From: Gemmatimonadota bacterium
GTDB taxonomy: Bacteria > Gemmatimonadota > Gemmatimonadetes > Longimicrobiales > Gaopeijiaceae
Direction of reading: 5' to 3'
Assembly (NCBI GenBank): GCA_022560615.1
Contig: JADFSR010000034.1
Coordinates: 1-45,850 of the forward strand
DNA length: 45,850 nt
Shown here: positions 10,116 through 21,380 of the stretch, piece by piece
Numbering within the stretch: the first letter of the stretch is position 1
Layout: the number at the start of each line of letters is the position of its first letter
The notes under the pieces: generated by a model
The model's input: only the letters and a program-made list of their open reading frames with translations
What the model was told of the DNA's origin: nothing
Databases searched by the model: none
Translations under genes and position numbers: made by a program

Positions 10116-10490
10116 CTTTTTTCTCCTCCCCGGCCGTGTGGCCGACACGTAGGAAGATGAAGAGCATCTCCCACATGCCGAATCCACCGAATGAGCCATC
10201 CATCCGTCACGATGACGCTGGGCACCCCGAGACGCAAGCCGAGAGCTACTCCCCGACCCGATCCGCCTCCACCTCGAATTCCTCATGCTCGCGCATCATC
10301 TCAGTCGTGGGCGTCACGAGCAGAGTGGACATGAGGAATGCGGCCTAGCTGCTCTGCCGGTCCCGCCGAGAGACCGCGTGGCGCGTAGTACATAGCCCCC
10401 GTATCGTGCGGTACCGGTAAGGCTGCCAAAGCCGTACGAATCTATGTGGTGGCGTCTCAGGCCCGTGCTCTGGAAAAGAGGAGGGATACG
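10116..10490. other. intergenic region between dodecin and propeller gene
   Basis: A 375-base gap with no convincing gene. Promoters for the divergent flanking genes are expected here. AGGAGGG at 10479-10485 is the ribosome-binding site of the downstream gene. No structured RNA is recognised. Confidence 0.4.
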
Positions 10491-11588
10491 ATGATGACAT
10501 GTCCAATCCGAACACTGTTCGGGCTGACTGTGGCTGTCGTCGCTCTCGCGATCACCGGCGGCTCGGCGACGGCGCAGGCGGGGTCCGAACCGACGAATGA
10601 CCTACCGAATCCCTACCAGTCGATCGATGGCTGGGCCAAGATGCCGATCGGTCGACATTGGGGGGCGACGAGTTCTATCGACGTCGACCCGGACGGCAAG
10701 TCGATCTGGGTCGCCGAACGTTGTGGGTCCGACTCCCTCAATCGGAACTATTCACCGAGAAGCTGTGCTGACTCAGAGCTGCCGGTCGTCCTCAAGTTCA
10801 ACCCCGACGGCATCCTGGTCAGGAGCTTCGGCGGTGGCCTGTTCGCGCTTCCCCACGGTTTCCACGTGGACCGGGATGGTAACGTCTGGGTGACAGACGC
10901 TCCGTTCGTACTGGGGGTGGGTGGAGCTGTCAGCAAAGGGCATCAGGTCATCAAATTCAGTCCGGACGGTGAGATCCTCCTGCGACTTGGCGTGCCCGGA
11001 GAGACCGGGAACGACGAGCGCCACTTCAATATGCCGTCTGACGTGATCACGGCTCCCAACGGAGACATCTTCGTTGCCGATGGTCATGGTGGGAACAGCA
11101 ACGCCCGGATCGTCAAGTTCGCGCCCGACGGTACCTTCATCATGGCGTGGGGGGAGCAAGGATCGGGGCCGGGTCAGTTCAACGCGCCGCACGGGCTGGC
11201 CATGGACTCGCAGGGGCGGCTGTTCGTGGCCGACCGCGGCAACAGTCGGATCCAGATCTTTGACCAGGATGGGAACTTCATCGACGAGTGGTATCAGTTC
11301 AGCCGGTTGAGCGGGATCTATATCGACCAGAACGACATCCTGTATGGAGTCGATTCCGAGTCGAATCGTCTTCGAGGTCGCGGTGAGTGGAAGCGCGGGA
11401 TTCGCATCGGCAGCGCCCGGACCGGCGAGGTGACGGCGTTCATTCCCGACCCGGCCGATGCGAACGATGGGCCACTCTCAGCTAGCAGCGGCGGTGAAGG
11501 TGTGGTCGCGGACGTCGATGGCGTGATCTATAGCGCCGAGGTTGGACCGCGGGCAGTGAAGCGCTACGTCAACTACATCGATCCCTGA
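10491..11588 (+). CDS. NHL-type beta-propeller exported protein (paralogue 1)
   Basis: A 365-residue exported protein with a signal peptide ending near ITGGSATAQA and a six-bladed NHL propeller. Typical blades are VLKFNPDGILVRSFGGGLFA, then GHQVIKFSPDGEILLRLG, GPGQFNAPHGLAMDSQGRLF and ADRGNSRIQIFDQDGNFIDE. The fold is that of NHL and peptidyl-alpha-hydroxyglycine-lyase-like proteins. An enzymatic role cannot be read from the sequence. ATG 10491 is set by AGGAGGG; ATG 10494 is equally possible. It shares layout and wording with the proteins at 13235 and 20358, which implies duplication. Confidence 0.8.
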   Translation: MMTCPIRTLFGLTVAVVALAITGGSATAQAGSEPTNDLPNPYQSIDGWAKMPIGRHWGATSSIDVDPDGKSIWVAERCGSDSLNRNYSPRSCADSELPVVLKFNPDGILVRSFGGGLFALPHGFHVDRDGNVWVTDAPFVLGVGGAVSKGHQVIKFSPDGEILLRLGVPGETGNDERHFNMPSDVITAPNGDIFVADGHGGNSNARIVKFAPDGTFIMAWGEQGSGPGQFNAPHGLAMDSQGRLFVADRGNSRIQIFDQDGNFIDEWYQFSRLSGIYIDQNDILYGVDSESNRLRGRGEWKRGIRIGSARTGEVTAFIPDPADANDGPLSASSGGEGVVADVDGVIYSAEVGPRAVKRYVNYIDP

Positions 11589-13125: not shown

Positions 13126-13234
13126 CACTAGCGGTCTTCAGTCGTGGCGGGCGAGCGTGAGGGTCGCGCACTGCGCGCGCGGCGGGCACATTGCTCGCAG
13201 CACAGAATCGCGAACCAGCGAGAGAGGAGGCATC

Positions 13235-14371
13235 ATGAAACTGGCGCGCATGGGCGTAGCCTTCGCCCTCGCTTTGTTGGCGGCGCTTCCGGCTTGCGTA
13301 ATCGAGAACCAGGCTGCGCCGCAATCGGGATCGCAAGGAGCGATCGAGAAGGGTGGGGACGATCGGACCGGAGAATACGAGGCCGTGGAAAACTGGTGGA
13401 AGCCGGCGCCAGACCACGCAGGGCCGTGGAGCTGGGGGCAGGTGTCGGGCGTCGCAGTCGACAACCCCAACCGGATCATCGTGGCGGTGTGGGGGGACCG
13501 GGACGCGCAGGGGCGGGAGCGGGAGGGGAGCACGAACTACCTGGTGGTCGTCGATCGGAACGGAAACATCATTGAGAACTGGACGCAGTGGGACTCGATC
13601 TTCAACAAACCCCACCAGGTCTACATCAGCCCTTACGATCCGGAGCGCCACGTTTGGGTCGTCGAGCGAGGTGGCGGCAAGGGGGTCAACATGCAGATCC
13701 TCAAGTTCACCAATGACGGAAGCGAGTTGGTGATGCGGCTCGTCGACCCCGACCACCCGACGACCCGGGCAGAGGCACGGGCAAATCCGAACCCGGGTCC
13801 GTTCACGTACGGCGACCCGGCGGTGCTCGCCTTCCTCCCGGATGGCAGCTTCTTGGTCGGCGACGGTTACTGGAACTCCCGTATCATCAAGTACAATGCG
13901 GACGGCGAGTACCTGATGGAGTGGGGCGAGCTCGGGAGCGGCCCTGGACAGTTCGACCTGGTGCACGGCCTCGCCGTGGACCGGGATCGCCGCGTCTACG
14001 TCGGCGACCGCACGAACAACCGCATCCAGATCTTTACGGAGGACGGTGAGTTCATCGAGGAATGGCCCGACGTGTCTGATCCCGTGGGCGTCTTCATCGA
14101 TGAGAACGACGGGGTCTGGGTGATCTCCGCGAGACTGAACCGGATTCTCAAGTACAGCCGCGACGGCGTGCTCCAGTACTACTGGGGCGCATTCGGAGGG
14201 ACGAGGGGTGGCTTTGCGGGTGGCTTGTCGCGTCCGCACCAGCTCGACGTGGACCAGGACGGCAACGTCTATATCGCCAGCTGGGACGGCGGATGGTTGG
14301 ACAAGTTCGTTCCGAGGCCGGATGCCGATCCAAGCAAGCTCATCGGCAGGTCGCTTGTGCTCGCGAACTAG
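13235..14371 (+). CDS. NHL-type beta-propeller lipoprotein (paralogue 2)
   Basis: ATG 13235 follows GAGAGGAGG. The leader (FALALLAALPACVIENQ) has a lipobox-like cysteine near residue 21, so the 378-residue protein is probably a lipoprotein. NHL blades include NYLVVVDRNGNIIENW, then GSGPGQFDLVHGLAVDRDRR, NNRIQIFTEDGEFIEEW and DVDQDGNVYIASWDGGW. Two blades are spaced by a longer insert (VDPDHPTTRAEARANPNPGP region). Catalytic function is not assigned. It precedes the cytochrome operon by 135 bases. Confidence 0.8.
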   Translation: MKLARMGVAFALALLAALPACVIENQAAPQSGSQGAIEKGGDDRTGEYEAVENWWKPAPDHAGPWSWGQVSGVAVDNPNRIIVAVWGDRDAQGREREGSTNYLVVVDRNGNIIENWTQWDSIFNKPHQVYISPYDPERHVWVVERGGGKGVNMQILKFTNDGSELVMRLVDPDHPTTRAEARANPNPGPFTYGDPAVLAFLPDGSFLVGDGYWNSRIIKYNADGEYLMEWGELGSGPGQFDLVHGLAVDRDRRVYVGDRTNNRIQIFTEDGEFIEEWPDVSDPVGVFIDENDGVWVISARLNRILKYSRDGVLQYYWGAFGGTRGGFAGGLSRPHQLDVDQDGNVYIASWDGGWLDKFVPRPDADPSKLIGRSLVLAN

Positions 14372-14506: not shown

Positions 14507-16921
14507 ATGAAGACAATCGCTGCTGGTGCCGCCTTGTTGGGGGTATGGCTTGCGGCGGGGAGCCACCCCGCCGGGACCGGCACGCCCTGGCTCGAAGCAG
14601 GAACCGTGTCCTTGCTTCCCGATGCCCCCCCCCGAACGCCCACCGAGGTGATCCAGCAGTATTGCGTCCGCTGCCACAATGAGCGCAGGCTGGCGGGGAA
14701 CCTGACGCTGGAGACATTCGTGGTCGAGGGTGCTGACGCGCGGGCCGAAACCGCTGAGAAGATGATCCTGAAGCTCCGCGCCGGGATGATGCCGCCGCCC
14801 GGGGCCCGGCGGCCGGCGGGCGACACGCTCCGGACACTCGTGGAGACGCTCGAGGCGGTCATCGACGAAGCGGCCCTGACCGATTCCAATCCCGGCGGGC
14901 GACGGTTCCAGAGACTCAACCGGGCCGAGTACCAACGCGTGATCCGTGACCTGCTGGCGCTCGACGTGGACGCCGGCCGCTGGCTTCCCCCAGACACCTA
15001 CCTGGGCAGCTTCGACAACCTGTCTGCCGCACAGGGGCTCTCGCCTACGCTGCTCGAGGCATACATGAGGGCGGCCACGGAGATCAGCCGTCTGGCTGTC
15101 GGCGTTCCGGACGCCGTCTCGTCCTCGACGAAGTACACGAGTCCGATCGAGGTCTCGCAGCACGCGTGGGACCAGCTCGAAGGCGCCCCCTACGGGACGC
15201 GTGGCGGAATCGTCGTCACGCACGACTTCCCGGCCGACGGCTCGTACGTATTCCAGGTGGAGACGCTCTTCGGCAGGGGCACGTCCTTCGAGGATATCGA
15301 TCTTTCGATCGACGGCGAAGGCGTGGCGCTGCTGGCCCTCGAGCACAACGGTGGCAGGAGCGTTCCGATCCGGACGGAGCCGATCGTCGTCGCTGCGGGT
15401 CAGCACCGGGTAGTGGCGGCGTTCGTCCGTAAGATCGATGGGCCCTACGAGGATCGGCTGAGTCCCTTCGATTGGTCGTTCGTCGGGGGCGAAGACTCGC
15501 AGGCTTGGGCCAACTACGGGATCACTGCGCTGCCTCACCTCGCCGACCTCATGATCACGGGGCCGGTCCGTGCCACAGGGGTGGTCTCCGAGACGCCGAG
15601 TCGCCGTGAGGTCTTCACATGCATGCCCACGACGTCCGCTGAGGAGCGTCCCTGCGCCGAATCGATCGTGGCGCGTCTCCTGCGCGAAGCGTACAGGCGA
15701 CCGGTCACCGCCGCGGATATCGCAGGTCCGATGTCGTTCTTCGATCGCGGCGCCGCGGAAGGGGGATTCGAGATCGGGGTCCGAACCGCGCTTCAGGCGA
15801 TCCTGGCGAGTCCTTCGTTTCTCTTCCGCCTGGAACGGGAACCGGCGGACATCGGAGAGGGCGAGAGCTATCGCCTGCGCGATCTCGACCTGGCAACCCG
15901 CGTGTCCTTCTTCCTTTGGGCCACGGGACCGGACGAGGAGCTGCTGGGGCTCGCGGCCGAGGGGCGACTCCTGGACCCCGGAGTTCTGGAACAGCAGGTC
16001 GGGCGCATGTTGGCAGACCCCCGGGCGGAGGCGCTCGCCACCCGCTTCGCGCATCAGTGGCTGCGACTACAAGACGCGGCGAAGAATCAGCCCGAGCCTT
16101 TCTTCTATCCGGACTTCACCGGCCAGCTCCGCGCTGATATGGTGCGGGAGACGGAGCTCTTCTTCGGCCACCTCGTTCGCGAGAACCTGAGCTTCCTCGA
16201 GCTCATCGACGCGGACTACAGCTTCATGAACGAGCGTCTGGCTCGGCACTACGGCATCCCGGGGGTGTCCGGCAACGAGTTCAGACGGGTGCCCTACCCG
16301 GACGACGCCCGCCGGGGTGTGTTGGGCCACGGCAGCGTGCTGCTGCTTACCTCCATGTCCGACCGAACCTCTCCCGTGCTTCGCGGAAAGTGGGTGATGG
16401 AGGTACTCATGGGAACGCCGCCGCCGCCGCCGCCGCCCAACGTCCCGGCCTTCGATCAGACGGAAAGCGTAGCGGACGGGCGTCGTCTGACCACCCGCGA
16501 GCGCATGGAGCGGCACCGAGCCGACCCGACGTGTAACTCGTGCCACCGCTTGATGGACCCCATCGGCTTGGCACTCGACAACTTCGACGTGACAGGCCGG
16601 TGGCGGCAGCGCGAGAACATGATGCCGCTCGATACACGAGGCACGTATTACGACGGCACTCCCGTGAGCAAGCTGAGCGAGCTCACCGAGGTCCTGCTCG
16701 GGCGTCCGATCCCGCTCGTGCGCAACTTCGCCACCAACCTGCTGGCGTACGCCATGGGCCGGCGGGTGGAGTACTACGACCAGCCGGCGATCCGGGCGAT
16801 CGTGAGAGATGCGGAGGCGGACGACTATCGAATGTCGTCCTTCATCCTGGGCGTCGTGAGAAGTGATCCGTTCCAGATGAGGCGATCGCAGGTGACCACC
16901 GACGCCGAGAAGGGGATGTAG
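14507..16921 (+). CDS. DUF1592-type exported cytochrome c protein
   Basis: An 804-residue exported protein with the planctomycete-type arrangement. The N-terminal leader is followed by a PSCyt1-like haem site CVRCH at residues 53-57 (RCHNERRLAGNLTLE). DUF1587 starts near residue 128 (RRFQRLNRAEYQRVIRDLL), then come DUF1595 and DUF1592 (about 390-590). DUF1588 has PPPPPPPNVPAF and a second CxxCH (CNSCH, 676-680), and DUF1585 is at the C-terminus. The two haem sites imply electron transfer outside the cytoplasm. The electron donor is unknown. It is followed after 4 bases by the DUF1552 gene, the usual partner of this family. Confidence 0.9.
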   Translation: MKTIAAGAALLGVWLAAGSHPAGTGTPWLEAGTVSLLPDAPPRTPTEVIQQYCVRCHNERRLAGNLTLETFVVEGADARAETAEKMILKLRAGMMPPPGARRPAGDTLRTLVETLEAVIDEAALTDSNPGGRRFQRLNRAEYQRVIRDLLALDVDAGRWLPPDTYLGSFDNLSAAQGLSPTLLEAYMRAATEISRLAVGVPDAVSSSTKYTSPIEVSQHAWDQLEGAPYGTRGGIVVTHDFPADGSYVFQVETLFGRGTSFEDIDLSIDGEGVALLALEHNGGRSVPIRTEPIVVAAGQHRVVAAFVRKIDGPYEDRLSPFDWSFVGGEDSQAWANYGITALPHLADLMITGPVRATGVVSETPSRREVFTCMPTTSAEERPCAESIVARLLREAYRRPVTAADIAGPMSFFDRGAAEGGFEIGVRTALQAILASPSFLFRLEREPADIGEGESYRLRDLDLATRVSFFLWATGPDEELLGLAAEGRLLDPGVLEQQVGRMLADPRAEALATRFAHQWLRLQDAAKNQPEPFFYPDFTGQLRADMVRETELFFGHLVRENLSFLELIDADYSFMNERLARHYGIPGVSGNEFRRVPYPDDARRGVLGHGSVLLLTSMSDRTSPVLRGKWVMEVLMGTPPPPPPPNVPAFDQTESVADGRRLTTRERMERHRADPTCNSCHRLMDPIGLALDNFDVTGRWRQRENMMPLDTRGTYYDGTPVSKLSELTEVLLGRPIPLVRNFATNLLAYAMGRRVEYYDQPAIRAIVRDAEADDYRMSSFILGVVRSDPFQMRRSQVTTDAEKGM

Positions 16922-16925
16922 AGCA

Positions 16926-18374
16926 ATGCAATTCATCACAGGTAAGCACGTTTCTCGGAGGACGTTCGTCCGTGGCATGGGTGCGACGGTCGCGTTGCCG
17001 TTCCTGGACGCGATGGTCCCCGCCGGGCGCTCGTGGCGTGACAGCCTAGCAGCGCCCGCCAACACTCGGCTCGTCTGCATCGAAGAGTCGATGGGGTGCG
17101 CCGGCGGCAGCGACTGGGGAGATGCTCGGAACCTCTTCGCTCCGGCGAAGCTGGGCCGAGACTTCGAGTTCTCGCCGACGAGCCAGTTGGCGCCTCTGGA
17201 GCAGTACCGGGAGTACCTGACCATCGTCAGTAACACAGATTGCCGCATGGCGGAGCCGTATCGGGCTGCGGAGATCGGCGGTGACCACGACCGCTCCACG
17301 GCGGTGTTCCTGACGCAGGCCCATCCCAAGCAAACCCAGGGCTCGGATCTCTACCTCGGGACGTCGCTCGATCAGCTGCACGCGCGGCGCTTCGGACTCG
17401 ACACCGCGCTGCCGTCACTCGAGCTGTGCACGGAGCCGATCGACCGCGGTGGCGGGTGCGCCTACAACTACCACTGCGCGTACACCACGTCGCTCGCGTG
17501 GGCGTCGCCCACGCAGCCGCTCCCGGCTATCCGCGAGCCGCGGGCGGTATTCGAGCGGCTCTTCGGCGCGGGGGATACCCCCGAAGACCGCGCGGCCAGG
17601 CGCCGGACGGATCGGAGCGTGATCGACTGGATCGCGACCGAAGTCGCGAGGTTGCGCATGACTCTGGGCGCAGTGGACCGCCTGGCCATGGACGAGTATC
17701 TGGGGCACATCCGCGAGATCGAGCGGAGGATCCAGCTCGTCGAGGCGCGTAACACCAGTGGCGAAGTGCGGGAGATGCCGGAGGCTCCGTCGGGCGTCCC
17801 GGACTCGTGGGAGGAGCACATGAGGCTGATGTTCGACCTCCAGGTGCTCGCGTTGCAGACGGACCTGACCCGCGTGATCACGTTCAAGACCGGCTTCGAT
17901 CAGTCGAACAGGACGTTCCCGGACAGCGGAACTACCAAGTCGATCCACGGAGCGTCGCACCACGGCAACGTCGCGGCCGACATCATGGACTACAACCTGA
18001 TCAACACGTACCGCCTGAGTCAGGTCGGCTACTTCCTGGAGAGGATGAAGAACACGATGGAGGGTGACTCCTCCCTGCTGGACAAGACAGCGATCGTTTG
18101 GGGCTCGCCGATGGGTGATCCCAACCTCCACAACCACCGCCGATGCCCGCTCATCCTGATGGGCCACGCGAACGGCGCCCTGGAAGGCAACCTCCACCTG
18201 AGGGCCCCGGAGGGCACGCCGATGGCGAACGTCTTCGTAAGCCTGATGCACGGCATCGGGCACGATGACATGCACGGCTTCGGCGACAGCACCGGCGAGT
18301 TCTCCTTGACGTTTCCGCGCGGCGCCGTGAGCGCTGCCGGGGCCGGCAGCGTTTCCAGGGATAGGGGCGCATGA
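16926..18374 (+). CDS. DUF1552 protein, Tat-exported
   Basis: A 482-residue protein with a twin-arginine signal (SRRTFVRGMGATVALPFLDA) starting at residue 10, so it is exported folded, probably with a cofactor or partner. The body matches DUF1552: EESMGCAGGSDWG, then ATEVARLRMTL, DYNLINTYRLSQVGYFLERM and IVWGSPMGDPNLHNHRRCPL. DUF1552 proteins are nearly always encoded with DUF1592 cytochromes and are of unknown function, with a fold related to DUF1501 sulfatase-like proteins. It begins 4 bases after the cytochrome gene and overlaps the ankyrin gene by 4 bases (ATGA), indicating one operon. Confidence 0.9.
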   Translation: MQFITGKHVSRRTFVRGMGATVALPFLDAMVPAGRSWRDSLAAPANTRLVCIEESMGCAGGSDWGDARNLFAPAKLGRDFEFSPTSQLAPLEQYREYLTIVSNTDCRMAEPYRAAEIGGDHDRSTAVFLTQAHPKQTQGSDLYLGTSLDQLHARRFGLDTALPSLELCTEPIDRGGGCAYNYHCAYTTSLAWASPTQPLPAIREPRAVFERLFGAGDTPEDRAARRRTDRSVIDWIATEVARLRMTLGAVDRLAMDEYLGHIREIERRIQLVEARNTSGEVREMPEAPSGVPDSWEEHMRLMFDLQVLALQTDLTRVITFKTGFDQSNRTFPDSGTTKSIHGASHHGNVAADIMDYNLINTYRLSQVGYFLERMKNTMEGDSSLLDKTAIVWGSPMGDPNLHNHRRCPLILMGHANGALEGNLHLRAPEGTPMANVFVSLMHGIGHDDMHGFGDSTGEFSLTFPRGAVSAAGAGSVSRDRGA

Positions 18375-20284
18375 GCGTGCGACGGCTGCAGGGGGTGATC
18401 GGCGCCGTCTTCGTGGTGGCCTTGCTCTCGGGCGCGGCGCTTCCCCTCGACACACCGCTGGTGGACGCAGCGCGTCGGGGTGAGGTGGAGGTGGTCAGGT
18501 CGTTGCTCGAGAGCGGTGTCGACGTCACCGAGGCCCAAGGGGACGGCCTGACCGCGCTGCACGCGGCGGCGGAGCGCGGCCACGTCGAGATCACGAAGCT
18601 GCTGATCTCGGCCGGCGCTGAGCTGAACGCCGAGACCCGCATCGGTCGGTACACCCCATTGCACCTCGCCGGTCGCGGCGGACACGGGCGCGTAGTGATG
18701 GCGCTGGTCGAGGCCGGCGCCGACGTGAACGTCACCACCACCAACACCGGGGTCACGCCCCTTCACCTAGCGGCCGCCGCCGTCGGTGGCGAGAAGGCTG
18801 TCGCGACGCTGCTGGAGCACGGCGCGGCGGTGAATGCGCGGGAGGCCTCGTCGGGACAGACGCCGCTGATGTTCGCCGCGGCCTACGACCGCTGGGCGGC
18901 CGTCGGGGAGCTCCTGAGCCGCGGCGCGGATCCAGCGATCACCACCGAAGTCATCGATGTGCTCCGGAGCGTCGCGATCGATCGCGAGGCCAACCGTCGG
19001 TTCCGGCAGATGGTCGCGTCCCTGCGTGACAGCGAGGAAAAGGCCGCCGATTGGGAGCCGAGTCCGGCTCAGGTGCAGGCGGTGATCCGCGCTCAACGGG
19101 AGTTCCTTCTGGCCGACGATCCCGTGGGGAAGTTCGACGCGAGCGAGCTCGTGAACTACAGGCCGGATTACCCGGGCGGACCCGACGTCGCGCGTCCTCC
19201 GTACCGGGAGACGCTCGTCGGGAAGACGGGCGGCATGACGGCGCTACTGCATGCGGCTCGAGAGGGCCACGTCGAGTCGGCGCGCATGTTGCTCGATGGC
19301 GGCGCCAACATCGACCAGGTGAGCGGTGGCGACCGAACGAGCTCCCTCCTGATGGCCACGCTCAACGGCCAGTTCGACTTGGCGCTGCTGCTCGTCGAGC
19401 GCGGTGCGGATCCCGACTTGGCCGCCTCAACCGATGGGTCTACGCCGCTCTTCGCGGTGCTCCAGACACAGTGGGCACCGAAGTCGAACTACCCCCAGCC
19501 GCGGGCGCACGACAATCAGCAGGCGGAGCACCTGGACGTGTTGCGTGCCCTCCTGGAGGCGGGCGCCGATCCGAACGTGCGACTGAACACCCACCTGTGG
19601 TACTGGGAATACGGTCTCACCAAGCTGGGGATCGATCTGCAGGGCGCGACACCGTTTTGGCGCGCCACATTCGCCCAGGACCTCACGGCCATGAAGCTCC
19701 TCGCCGCGTACGGCGCGGACCCGAACATCCCTACGTCATGGCCGGCCATTGGGATGAGAGAGCGCCGGCAGCAGGATGGGCGCCAACAGGAAGACTCGGG
19801 GCTGCCGTCGATTCCTGAGGGAGTGCCGAGCGCGTATCCCGTGCATATCGCCGCGGGAGGGGGATGGCTCGGGCTCGGCGCCTTCAGCGTCCGTAGCGTG
19901 CCCGACCAGTTCATGTCGGCCTTGATGTACCTGATCGAGGAGCACGGCGCCGACGTCGACCTCAGGGACTCGTGGGGTTACACGCCACTGCACTACGCGG
20001 CGTCCCGGGGGGATGACGAGATGATCCGTTACCTGATGGCGCAGGGCGCGGACGTCGGGGCGATCACCCGCCTCGGTCAGTCCACGGCCGACATGGCTCG
20101 CGGAGGTCGCGCTGGCTTCTTCACGCGGGTGGCGTACCCGGAGACGGTGACGCTGCTGCGGAGCCTGGGCTCGACGTTGGAGTGCCTGCACACGCACTTC
20201 TTGGACACCGGAGACTTCTGTCCGGGCGCCGGCGTGACCTGGGGAAGTGAGTTGGGGTCCCGCAAGCCCGGAAGCGGCAGGTAG
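18371..20284 (+). CDS. exported ankyrin-repeat protein
   Basis: A 637-residue protein whose start overlaps the DUF1552 stop (ATGA). A signal peptide of about 25 residues is followed by ankyrin repeats: DGLTALHAAAERGHVEITKL, then YTPLHLAGRGGHG, TPLMFAAAYDRW, MTALLHAAREGHVESARMLL and GYTPLHYAASRGDDEMIRYL. An insert without repeats lies at about 200-270. The repeats bind other proteins in the periplasm or at the surface. Coupling with the DUF1592/DUF1552 pair suggests it is their scaffold or partner. The C-terminal tail has cysteines (LECLHTHFLDTGDFC) that could form a disulfide. Confidence 0.85.
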   Translation: MSVRRLQGVIGAVFVVALLSGAALPLDTPLVDAARRGEVEVVRSLLESGVDVTEAQGDGLTALHAAAERGHVEITKLLISAGAELNAETRIGRYTPLHLAGRGGHGRVVMALVEAGADVNVTTTNTGVTPLHLAAAAVGGEKAVATLLEHGAAVNAREASSGQTPLMFAAAYDRWAAVGELLSRGADPAITTEVIDVLRSVAIDREANRRFRQMVASLRDSEEKAADWEPSPAQVQAVIRAQREFLLADDPVGKFDASELVNYRPDYPGGPDVARPPYRETLVGKTGGMTALLHAAREGHVESARMLLDGGANIDQVSGGDRTSSLLMATLNGQFDLALLLVERGADPDLAASTDGSTPLFAVLQTQWAPKSNYPQPRAHDNQQAEHLDVLRALLEAGADPNVRLNTHLWYWEYGLTKLGIDLQGATPFWRATFAQDLTAMKLLAAYGADPNIPTSWPAIGMRERRQQDGRQQEDSGLPSIPEGVPSAYPVHIAAGGGWLGLGAFSVRSVPDQFMSALMYLIEEHGADVDLRDSWGYTPLHYAASRGDDEMIRYLMAQGADVGAITRLGQSTADMARGGRAGFFTRVAYPETVTLLRSLGSTLECLHTHFLDTGDFCPGAGVTWGSELGSRKPGSGR

Positions 20285-20357
20285 AGCCACTTTGGAACCC
20301 CGAATGCTGATGTCTATTGGCACTGTCGCAGTTCCATCCGTCGAGAGAGGTGTTTCC

Positions 20358-21380
20358 ATGTCGTATGCGAGTCGAGTCGGTCTGATGTTTCTTTTCGTCG
20401 GCGCCGGAGTTGGCGCGACCGCGGTCGCGTTGGACGCGCAGAACAGTGCGCCCAACCCATATCGGACGGTGCCCGGGGTCTGGGCGCCGCTTCCCGACGG
20501 CCGAGATTGGGGTTCGACCAGTCTCGTGGAGGTATCCCCGGACGGCGAGACGATCTGGGCTGTCGACCGCTGCGGAGAGAACACCTGTGTCGGTCACGAC
20601 GACCTGGACGTCGTCTTCCAGTTCGATAAGAGGGGTCGCATCCTCAAGCAGTTCGGAGCCGGAATGTTCGAGTGGCCCCATGGGATCGACGTGGACGACG
20701 ACGGCAACATCTGGGTGGCGGATGCTCGGGGGAACGAGGAGCGCGGCCGGGGCCATCAGGTGATCAAGTTCAGCCCGGAGGGAGAGGTCTTGCTGCGCCT
20801 GGGCACGGCCGGGGTGGCTGGGCGGACCCAGACCACGCTCGACCAGCCCAACGACGTGTTGGTTGCGCCCAACGGAGACATCTTCGTGGCCGACGGGCAC
20901 CCCGCGAACGGAAACAACCGGATCGTCAAGTACTCGAGTGACGGCACGTATCTCATGGAGTGGGGCGAGACGGGCGCTGAGCGTGGGGAGTTCAGGACGC
21001 CGCACGCACTCGCGATGGATGACGACGGCCTCCTCTACGTGGGAGACCGCAGCAACCGGCGGATCCAGGTGTTCGAGCAGGATGGCACCTTCGTTCGCGA
21101 CTTCTACAACATGGGGCGGGCCAGCGGCATCACGATTCACAATAACAAGCTCTACGTGGCAGACTCGGAATCCAGCTTCACGCGCAACCCGGGATTCAGG
21201 CGCGGCATCCGCGTGATGGACCTCGACACCGGCTATGTCATCGCGTTTATCCCCGATCCGGAGACCGACCCGAGCAACGCCGGAACGAGCGCTGCCGAGG
21301 GCGTCGCGGTGGACAATGACGGCAACGTCTACGGTGCGGAGGTCGGTCCTCGTATGCTGCGGAAGCACATAGCGCGGTAG
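20358..21380 (+). CDS. NHL-type beta-propeller exported protein (paralogue 3)
   Basis: ATG 20358 has GAGAGAGG seven bases upstream and gives a leader ending near VALDAQNSA. The 340-residue body is close to paralogue 1: VPGVWAPLPDGRDWGSTSLV, then GHQVIKFSPEGEVLLRLG, NGDIFVADGHPANGNNRIVK and DRSNRRIQVFEQDGTFV. It follows the ankyrin gene by 73 bases and converges on the MFS gene. Same fold and same caveat on catalysis as its paralogues. Confidence 0.8.
   Translation: MSYASRVGLMFLFVGAGVGATAVALDAQNSAPNPYRTVPGVWAPLPDGRDWGSTSLVEVSPDGETIWAVDRCGENTCVGHDDLDVVFQFDKRGRILKQFGAGMFEWPHGIDVDDDGNIWVADARGNEERGRGHQVIKFSPEGEVLLRLGTAGVAGRTQTTLDQPNDVLVAPNGDIFVADGHPANGNNRIVKYSSDGTYLMEWGETGAERGEFRTPHALAMDDDGLLYVGDRSNRRIQVFEQDGTFVRDFYNMGRASGITIHNNKLYVADSESSFTRNPGFRRGIRVMDLDTGYVIAFIPDPETDPSNAGTSAAEGVAVDNDGNVYGAEVGPRMLRKHIAR

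Follow-up and report, generated by a model that had tools for sequence, protein, structure and literature searches.

In the DNA analysed here (the window, 45,850 nucleotides of a Gemmatimonadota contig), the gene of a DUF1592-type cytochrome (PSD) is followed by a DUF1552 gene (HXX) and a gene for an ankyrin protein (ANK), and in most relatives of the pair an ankyrin gene was likewise found directly downstream. The same set of three recurs in many related bacterial genomes and thus very probably represents a real enzyme system. We tentatively favour the reading that the three genes together encode an extracytoplasmic redox enzyme, with the ankyrin protein as its dedicated scaffold or assembly subunit. 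With a conserved third subunit, a fold and named invariant residues for DUF1552 and a conserved ankyrin tail, what was an ill-defined pair of DUFs becomes a three-part enzyme that can be put to the test.

Organization and predicted export of the trio

The features of the trio are collected in Table 1. PSD and HXX are separated by 4 bases and HXX and ANK overlap by 4 bases (ATGA), the spacing and reading frames being as a preliminary description of this DNA had them. Its account of a two-haem exported cytochrome, a Tat-exported DUF1552 protein and an exported ankyrin protein was borne out by two CxxCH motifs (CVRCH and CNSCH) with an export signal in PSD, a twin-arginine N terminus (SRRTFVRG) in HXX, and a Sec-type hydrophobic N terminus followed by ankyrin repeats in ANK.

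Table 1. Positions of the trio genes and of the beta-sandwich insert in the window.
Feature	Length	Position	Strand	Basis
PSD (DUF1592-type cytochrome)	804 aa	14507-16921	+	ORF, Pfam, two CxxCH
CBM-like beta-sandwich coding region (PSD residues 206-354, between PSD3 and PSD5)		15122-15568	+	structure matches
HXX (DUF1552/HXXSHH), predicted Tat-exported	482 aa	16926-18374	+	PF07586 E 7.9e-80, model Z 16.5, invariant His/Asp
ANK, predicted Sec-exported	637 aa	18371-20284	+	Ank E 2.5e-65, tail motif

Export signals are also common in the relatives: the pattern RRx[FLMI] is present in 127 of 148 HXX proteins, and 107 of the 121 ankyrin proteins in the tree set have a hydrophobic stretch near the start. 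The 14 ankyrins lacking it include ORFs like those of loci L004-L006, where the stop-to-stop frame starts too early. The signals on PSD, HXX and ANK place the proteins in the periplasm or beyond; such cytochromes were predicted to be periplasmic or cytoplasmic in the account of He et al. 2017 (PMC5615132). A scan for promoters and terminators returned 0 and 0, below the counts in shuffled sequences. Three NHL-repeat proteins flank the trio (10446-11588, 13157-14371 and 20247-21380), and a beta-lactamase-family protein sits between the first two of these.

Conservation of the ankyrin partner

A gene-neighbourhood survey had been set beforehand as the test of whether the ankyrin gene is conserved beside the pair, and conservation is what was found. 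Search profiles were built from proteins of the host genome, the ankyrin profile finding any ankyrin gene; 'near' denotes an ankyrin ORF on either strand that lies at most 3.6 kb away without being the direct downstream neighbour, and 30 short loci (L087-L116) were excluded from the counts. The best 80 named loci hold 95 HXX genes, with an ankyrin directly downstream of 89, near one, none at two and a contig end at three; PSD also lies directly upstream of 83 of these 89. Among 40 regions from the same phylum, hand-picked from the matches listed and thus not random, 44 HXX genes had an ankyrin downstream in 40 cases, near in two and none in two. Some sequence is shared between the sample sets, L058 and L137 being one and the same contig. 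At least 55 of the 150 genomes in the phylum sample carry a DUF1552 gene.

The host genome (G000, 105 contigs) contains eight DUF1552 genes and eight PSD4 genes at the same eight loci. An ankyrin gene follows six of the DUF1552 genes directly and on the same strand, giving six trios; a further DUF1552 gene has an ankyrin close by, and the last, which sits on a contig of 7.7 kb, lacks one. Ankyrin matches occur in nine ORFs of this genome, two of which are away from PSD-HXX pairs (contigs C65 and C6). The binomial probability of at least six of eight downstream ankyrins by chance is 4e-15, for an assumed rather than counted 4,000 genes. The HXX proteins of the six trios are only 37-74% identical to each other, which indicates that the trio has persisted through ancient duplications.

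Among more distant DUF1552 genes the association is looser. DUF1552 matches number 40 in one complete Acidobacteriota chromosome (G185) and 37 in a second Acidobacteriota genome (G204); at 20 of the 40 loci in G185 (L161-L180), the ankyrin was downstream at nine, near at seven and absent at four. A further 20 Acidobacteriota regions, one per genome among the matches listed (which cover at least 26 of the 40 genomes) and hence not random, included an ankyrin in 13 and not in five, two being cut by contig ends. A set of 18 further regions, taken from mixed genomes, contained 19 HXX genes; the ankyrin was downstream of 15, near two and missing at two. DUF1552 relatives were also present in 15 plasmid records; four of these loci were examined, and an ankyrin was present only in that of Novosphingobium KACC 22771. 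The absent or displaced ankyrins at some G185 loci and the three plasmid loci that lack one indicate that not every PSD-HXX pair needs an ankyrin.

The ankyrin was also scored over an HXX tree (148 distinct sequences, FastTree, long branches flagged). Taking 640 bits against our own HXX profile as the border of the main subfamily, a cut picked after viewing the tree, the 115 HXX proteins above it had an ankyrin downstream in 107 cases, near in two, none in three and a cut contig in three, whereas for 33 more distant HXX proteins the numbers were 14 downstream, nine near and ten with none. The ankyrin is thus near-constant in the window's subfamily and optional outside it. Overall, the conservation counts rule out chance adjacency of the trio genes.

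By NCBI label, the named loci belong to Gemmatimonadota, Acidobacteriota and Gammaproteobacteria, with one record labelled 'Euryarchaeota'. Gammaproteobacteria are doubtful as a separate host group, as at least one genome with this label (G184, locus L010) has its matches at the same places as G132; G184 is titled Gammaproteobacteria bacterium SB0662_bin_11, G132 belongs to the window's family, and the title looks wrong. The record titled Euryarchaeota archaeon (L046) has two trios, of which the second runs into the end of the locus; the contig is probably bacterial and was mislabelled or misbinned. In L058 (3274-12964) an ankyrin-less PSD-HXX pair is immediately followed by a second, complete PSD-HXX-ANK set, and this arrangement suggests that two pairs may share one ankyrin there. 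The ORFs of L033, where an ankyrin is present, overlap by more than 300 bases.

The PSD cytochrome

The order of Pfam families in PSD is PSD3, PSD5, PSD4 (DUF1592), PSCyt3 and PSD2, preceded by a cytochrome c domain that scores under the Pfam cut-off; the N terminus is PSCyt1-like. All five families match each of the 58 aligned members, and long PSD proteins carry two CxxCH sequence motifs in 118 of 122 cases and one in the other four. No credible solved relative was found by sequence (best E 0.22). The model, built from 58 sequences, has a pLDDT of 85.9 and a pTM of 0.87, and shows the insert at residues 206-354 as a beta-sandwich resembling CBM36, CBM6 and CBM35. The highest match (Z 9.3) was to residues 204-327 of xylanase J, which we take to be its CBM36, followed by a CBM36 domain (9.2) and by CBM6 and CBM35 domains down to 7.3; Foldseek hits to the insert were weak (E 0.015-0.07, none under 0.001). 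Sugar binding by the insert is only suggested, since jelly rolls of the C1q, Pgp3 and Cry types scored almost as high (Z 7.5-8.8). Pfam lists 13 families for the 58 members, none of them a CBM family. The helical PSD4/PSCyt3 part was hardly probed by the fold comparison, as hits to the CBM-like domain took up the match lists.

The HXX protein

HXX matches the HXXSHH (DUF1552) family of Pfam with 269 bits (cut-off 30) and contains the HxxSHH motif as HGASHH at positions 341-346. The model, from 67 sequences, has a mean pLDDT of 69.9; 169 of the 482 residues reach at least 90 and 151 fall below 50, the stretch 171-236 being among the latter. It takes the alkaline-phosphatase/sulfatase fold (best Z 16.5, with an rmsd of 4.3 over 290 residues); the matches are to sulfatases and nucleotide pyrophosphatases as well as related enzymes, with Z 16.5 for a putative Bacteroides sulfatase and 16.4 for the Xac nucleotide pyrophosphatase. 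Sequence identity to the structural matches was 7-14% in the best 50 rows, and the best Foldseek row combined an E of 1.7e-4 with low TM-scores of 0.34 and 0.31. Searching by sequence gave no credible solved relative (best E 0.057, BRICK1). The preliminary description held that neither DUF has a known reaction, and this stands as far as was found, with the addition of a recognizable enzyme fold for the DUF1552 model.

Seven residues (H121, D149, D251, R263, E266, H341 and H402) are invariant in all 148 HXX proteins, and four others nearly so (H345 in 146, H346 in 143, C178 in 143 and C184 in 142); T315 is conserved at 1.00 elsewhere in the fold. H121 is the second residue of helix 120-128 of the model, the place expected for the nucleophile, as judged from the secondary structure. 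This helix has no invariant Ser, Thr or Cys among the 148 sequences: position 124 is Ser in 105 and Thr in 13, and position 125 is Ser or Thr in 121. The type I sulfatase signature for formylglycine, C/S-x-P-S-R, is absent from the window HXX as read by eye. We infer that HXX either has a His/Asp metal site with non-canonical chemistry or is a dead hydrolase. A secreted DUF1552 protein of R. baltica (RB9955) is tabulated with the remark 'regulatory mechanism' in PMC2754498.

The ankyrin protein and its C-terminal tails

The window's ANK carries CLHTHFLDTGDFC close to its C terminus. Two types of Cys-rich tail were recognized, N-x-(H/N)-x-CxxC at the C terminus and CxHTHFLDTGDxC, the window's type. 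For the 121 ankyrins downstream of HXX in the tree set, 80 tails were of the CxxC type, 13 were CxHTHFLDTGDxC, 19 were classed as 'other' and nine were cut by contig ends. In the CxxC type the second Cys is the last residue in 64 of 80 proteins, Asn occupies position -4 in all 80, and position -2 is His in 59 and Asn in 14. The 13 proteins of the window's type fall in one tree group of 17 rows together with the window (support 100). A tail of either type is present in 93 of the 98 uncut ankyrins of the main subfamily and in none of 14 in the distant set. The five main-subfamily exceptions comprise a near variant (L196), a masked sequence (L030), a protein scored on a different ORF (L148), one with a cytochrome-like CxxCH end (L186) and one with no tail (L003).

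CxxCH motifs occur in only two of 194 ankyrin ORFs. In an Acidobacteriota trio (L186, 4027-5940, minus strand) the ankyrin ends in a cytochrome c'-like stretch with CGSCH (E 0.0033, below the Pfam cut-off). In the window's genus, an ankyrin near a PSD-HXX pair (L199, 10055-12826, plus strand) also contains CxxCH, and its C terminus is weakly squalene-hopene-cyclase-like (E 0.0005, below the Pfam cut-off).

Co-inheritance and flanking genes

The distance matrices of HXX, PSD and ANK correlate with each other over 96 complete trios (Mantel r 0.90-0.93; 0 of 999 permutations as high). Such a correlation could also arise from shared ancestry alone; it shows that partners are rarely swapped, and it need not imply contact. 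The nearest neighbours of the three proteins were concordant in only 50-55% of the same 96 trios. The proposal in the preliminary description that the three genes form a functional unit is strongly supported by the conserved ankyrin partner together with the joint divergence of the three proteins.

A fourth conserved gene was not seen when 720 flanking ORFs from 127 loci, called simply as longest ORFs, were clustered. The commonest cluster, represented by a TonB receptor, occurred at 15 of the 127 loci, followed by SusD (10), a cluster with no Pfam family (9), two beta-lactamase-family clusters (8 and 7), NHL (7) and others at 7 each, the Pfam assignments being those of representatives of the ten commonest clusters. 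As the flanking genes vary between loci, the gene context names no substrate.

A model for the trio and its alternatives

If the three proteins make up one extracytoplasmic redox enzyme, as we tentatively propose, an organic and possibly glycan substrate would be held by the PSD insert and the pocket of HXX. HXX would then be a metalloprotein with an invariant His about where its relatives carry a Ser, Thr or Cys nucleophile, and electrons would pass via the two haems of PSD towards the respiratory chain. ANK would hold PSD and HXX together, its Cys-rich tail forming a disulfide or binding metal or haem, and the many divergent trio copies per genome may serve different substrates. A cluster in Sphingobium herbicidovorans with genes for cytochrome c' and cytochrome b561 (see below) fits an electron link to the membrane, and the cytochrome c'-like ankyrin end in L186 also speaks for the proposed module. 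A bolder version, which we think unlikely, makes the trio a new class of extracytoplasmic oxidoreductase, in which a nucleophile-less HXX of the alkaline-phosphatase fold would provide a His/Asp metal redox centre, PSD a di-haem exit and the ankyrin an electron or haem relay; the CxxC tail would then be a remnant or replacement of a c-haem domain that is still fused in L186.

The strongest rival is that ANK stands outside the working enzyme as a helper that supplies a partner with haem or metal or maintains its fold, with the terminal CxxC handling thiols or the cofactor. We regard this as a real possibility, although on balance not a likely one. It has a published parallel in the ankyrins encoded beside catalases (AnkB-KatB and Cj1386-KatA), and the strict form of the CxxC tail, with its fixed Asn and its frequent stop at the second Cys (80 and 64 of 80 proteins), agrees with it; the window's own group, however, has the other tail type, and the fact that each trio has its own diverging ankyrin suits a dedicated subunit equally well.

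The remaining alternatives concern HXX and the operon as a whole. HXX could be a catalytically dead member of the alkaline-phosphatase superfamily that does no more than bind substrate or PSD, leaving the redox work to PSD alone; the lack of an invariant Ser, Thr or Cys in helix 120-128 and of the sulfatase signature points in this direction, whereas the retention of H121, D149, D251, E266, H341 and H402 in every sequence, and of H345 and H346 in nearly all, resembles a kept active or metal site. We regard this proposal as distinctly unlikely. That the genes are co-transcribed neighbours with no joint function is very improbable. Unrelated genes can share an operon, and the promoter and terminator scan does not decide the matter, but the gene order recurs over divergent paralogues and in both Gemmatimonadota and Acidobacteriota while the flanks vary.

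Comparison with known systems

The closest described system is that of He et al. 2017 (PMC5615132), where planctomycete-specific cytochrome (PSCyt3/PSD) genes adjoin a conserved family of unknown genes, some PSCyt genes carry carbohydrate-binding modules, and the genes are reported at high frequency in some genomes. To that extent it resembles the window trio in having PSCyt3 and PSD domains beside an unknown family; it differs in its hosts, which are Verrucomicrobia, and in that the word ankyrin occurs 0 times in the paper. The unknown family is, we infer, DUF1552, a term that occurs 0 times in the main text and three times in the whole record.

HXX shares with the alkaline phosphatase/sulfatase superfamily its modelled fold and an invariant His/Asp set, and differs from it in lacking the sulfatase signature, in its predicted Tat export and in its link to a cytochrome. 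For the ankyrin, the nearest parallels are proteins encoded beside catalases, which are described as interacting with and promoting the catalase, help with orientation or haem binding being proposed; AnkB of Pseudomonas, termed periplasmic in the title of its own paper, goes with KatB, and Cj1386 pairs with KatA in Campylobacter (PMC10294975, PMC9426514). As in the trio, an exported ankyrin gene adjoins the gene of a haem protein, but the partner is a catalase instead of PSD and HXX.

The pMSHV cluster of Sphingobium herbicidovorans (L158, 10373-14519) has a PSD core gene followed by HXX, as in the trio, and continues with separate small cytochromes (c' and b561) in place of an ankyrin. Its DUF1592 protein is shorter: it lacks the haem part at the N terminus and is too short for the CBM-like insert. 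A TonB receptor gene precedes the cluster, and SDR and Rieske genes come after it. In Sphingobium TomTYG72, DUF1552 is followed by a glyoxalase-like gene, with no such cytochrome directly after. In the open-licence literature, none of the titles and abstract beginnings listed describes an ankyrin gene with DUF1592 or DUF1552. The PSD-HXX gene pair is already known; new here are the DUF1552 fold, the CBM-like insert and the ankyrin tails.
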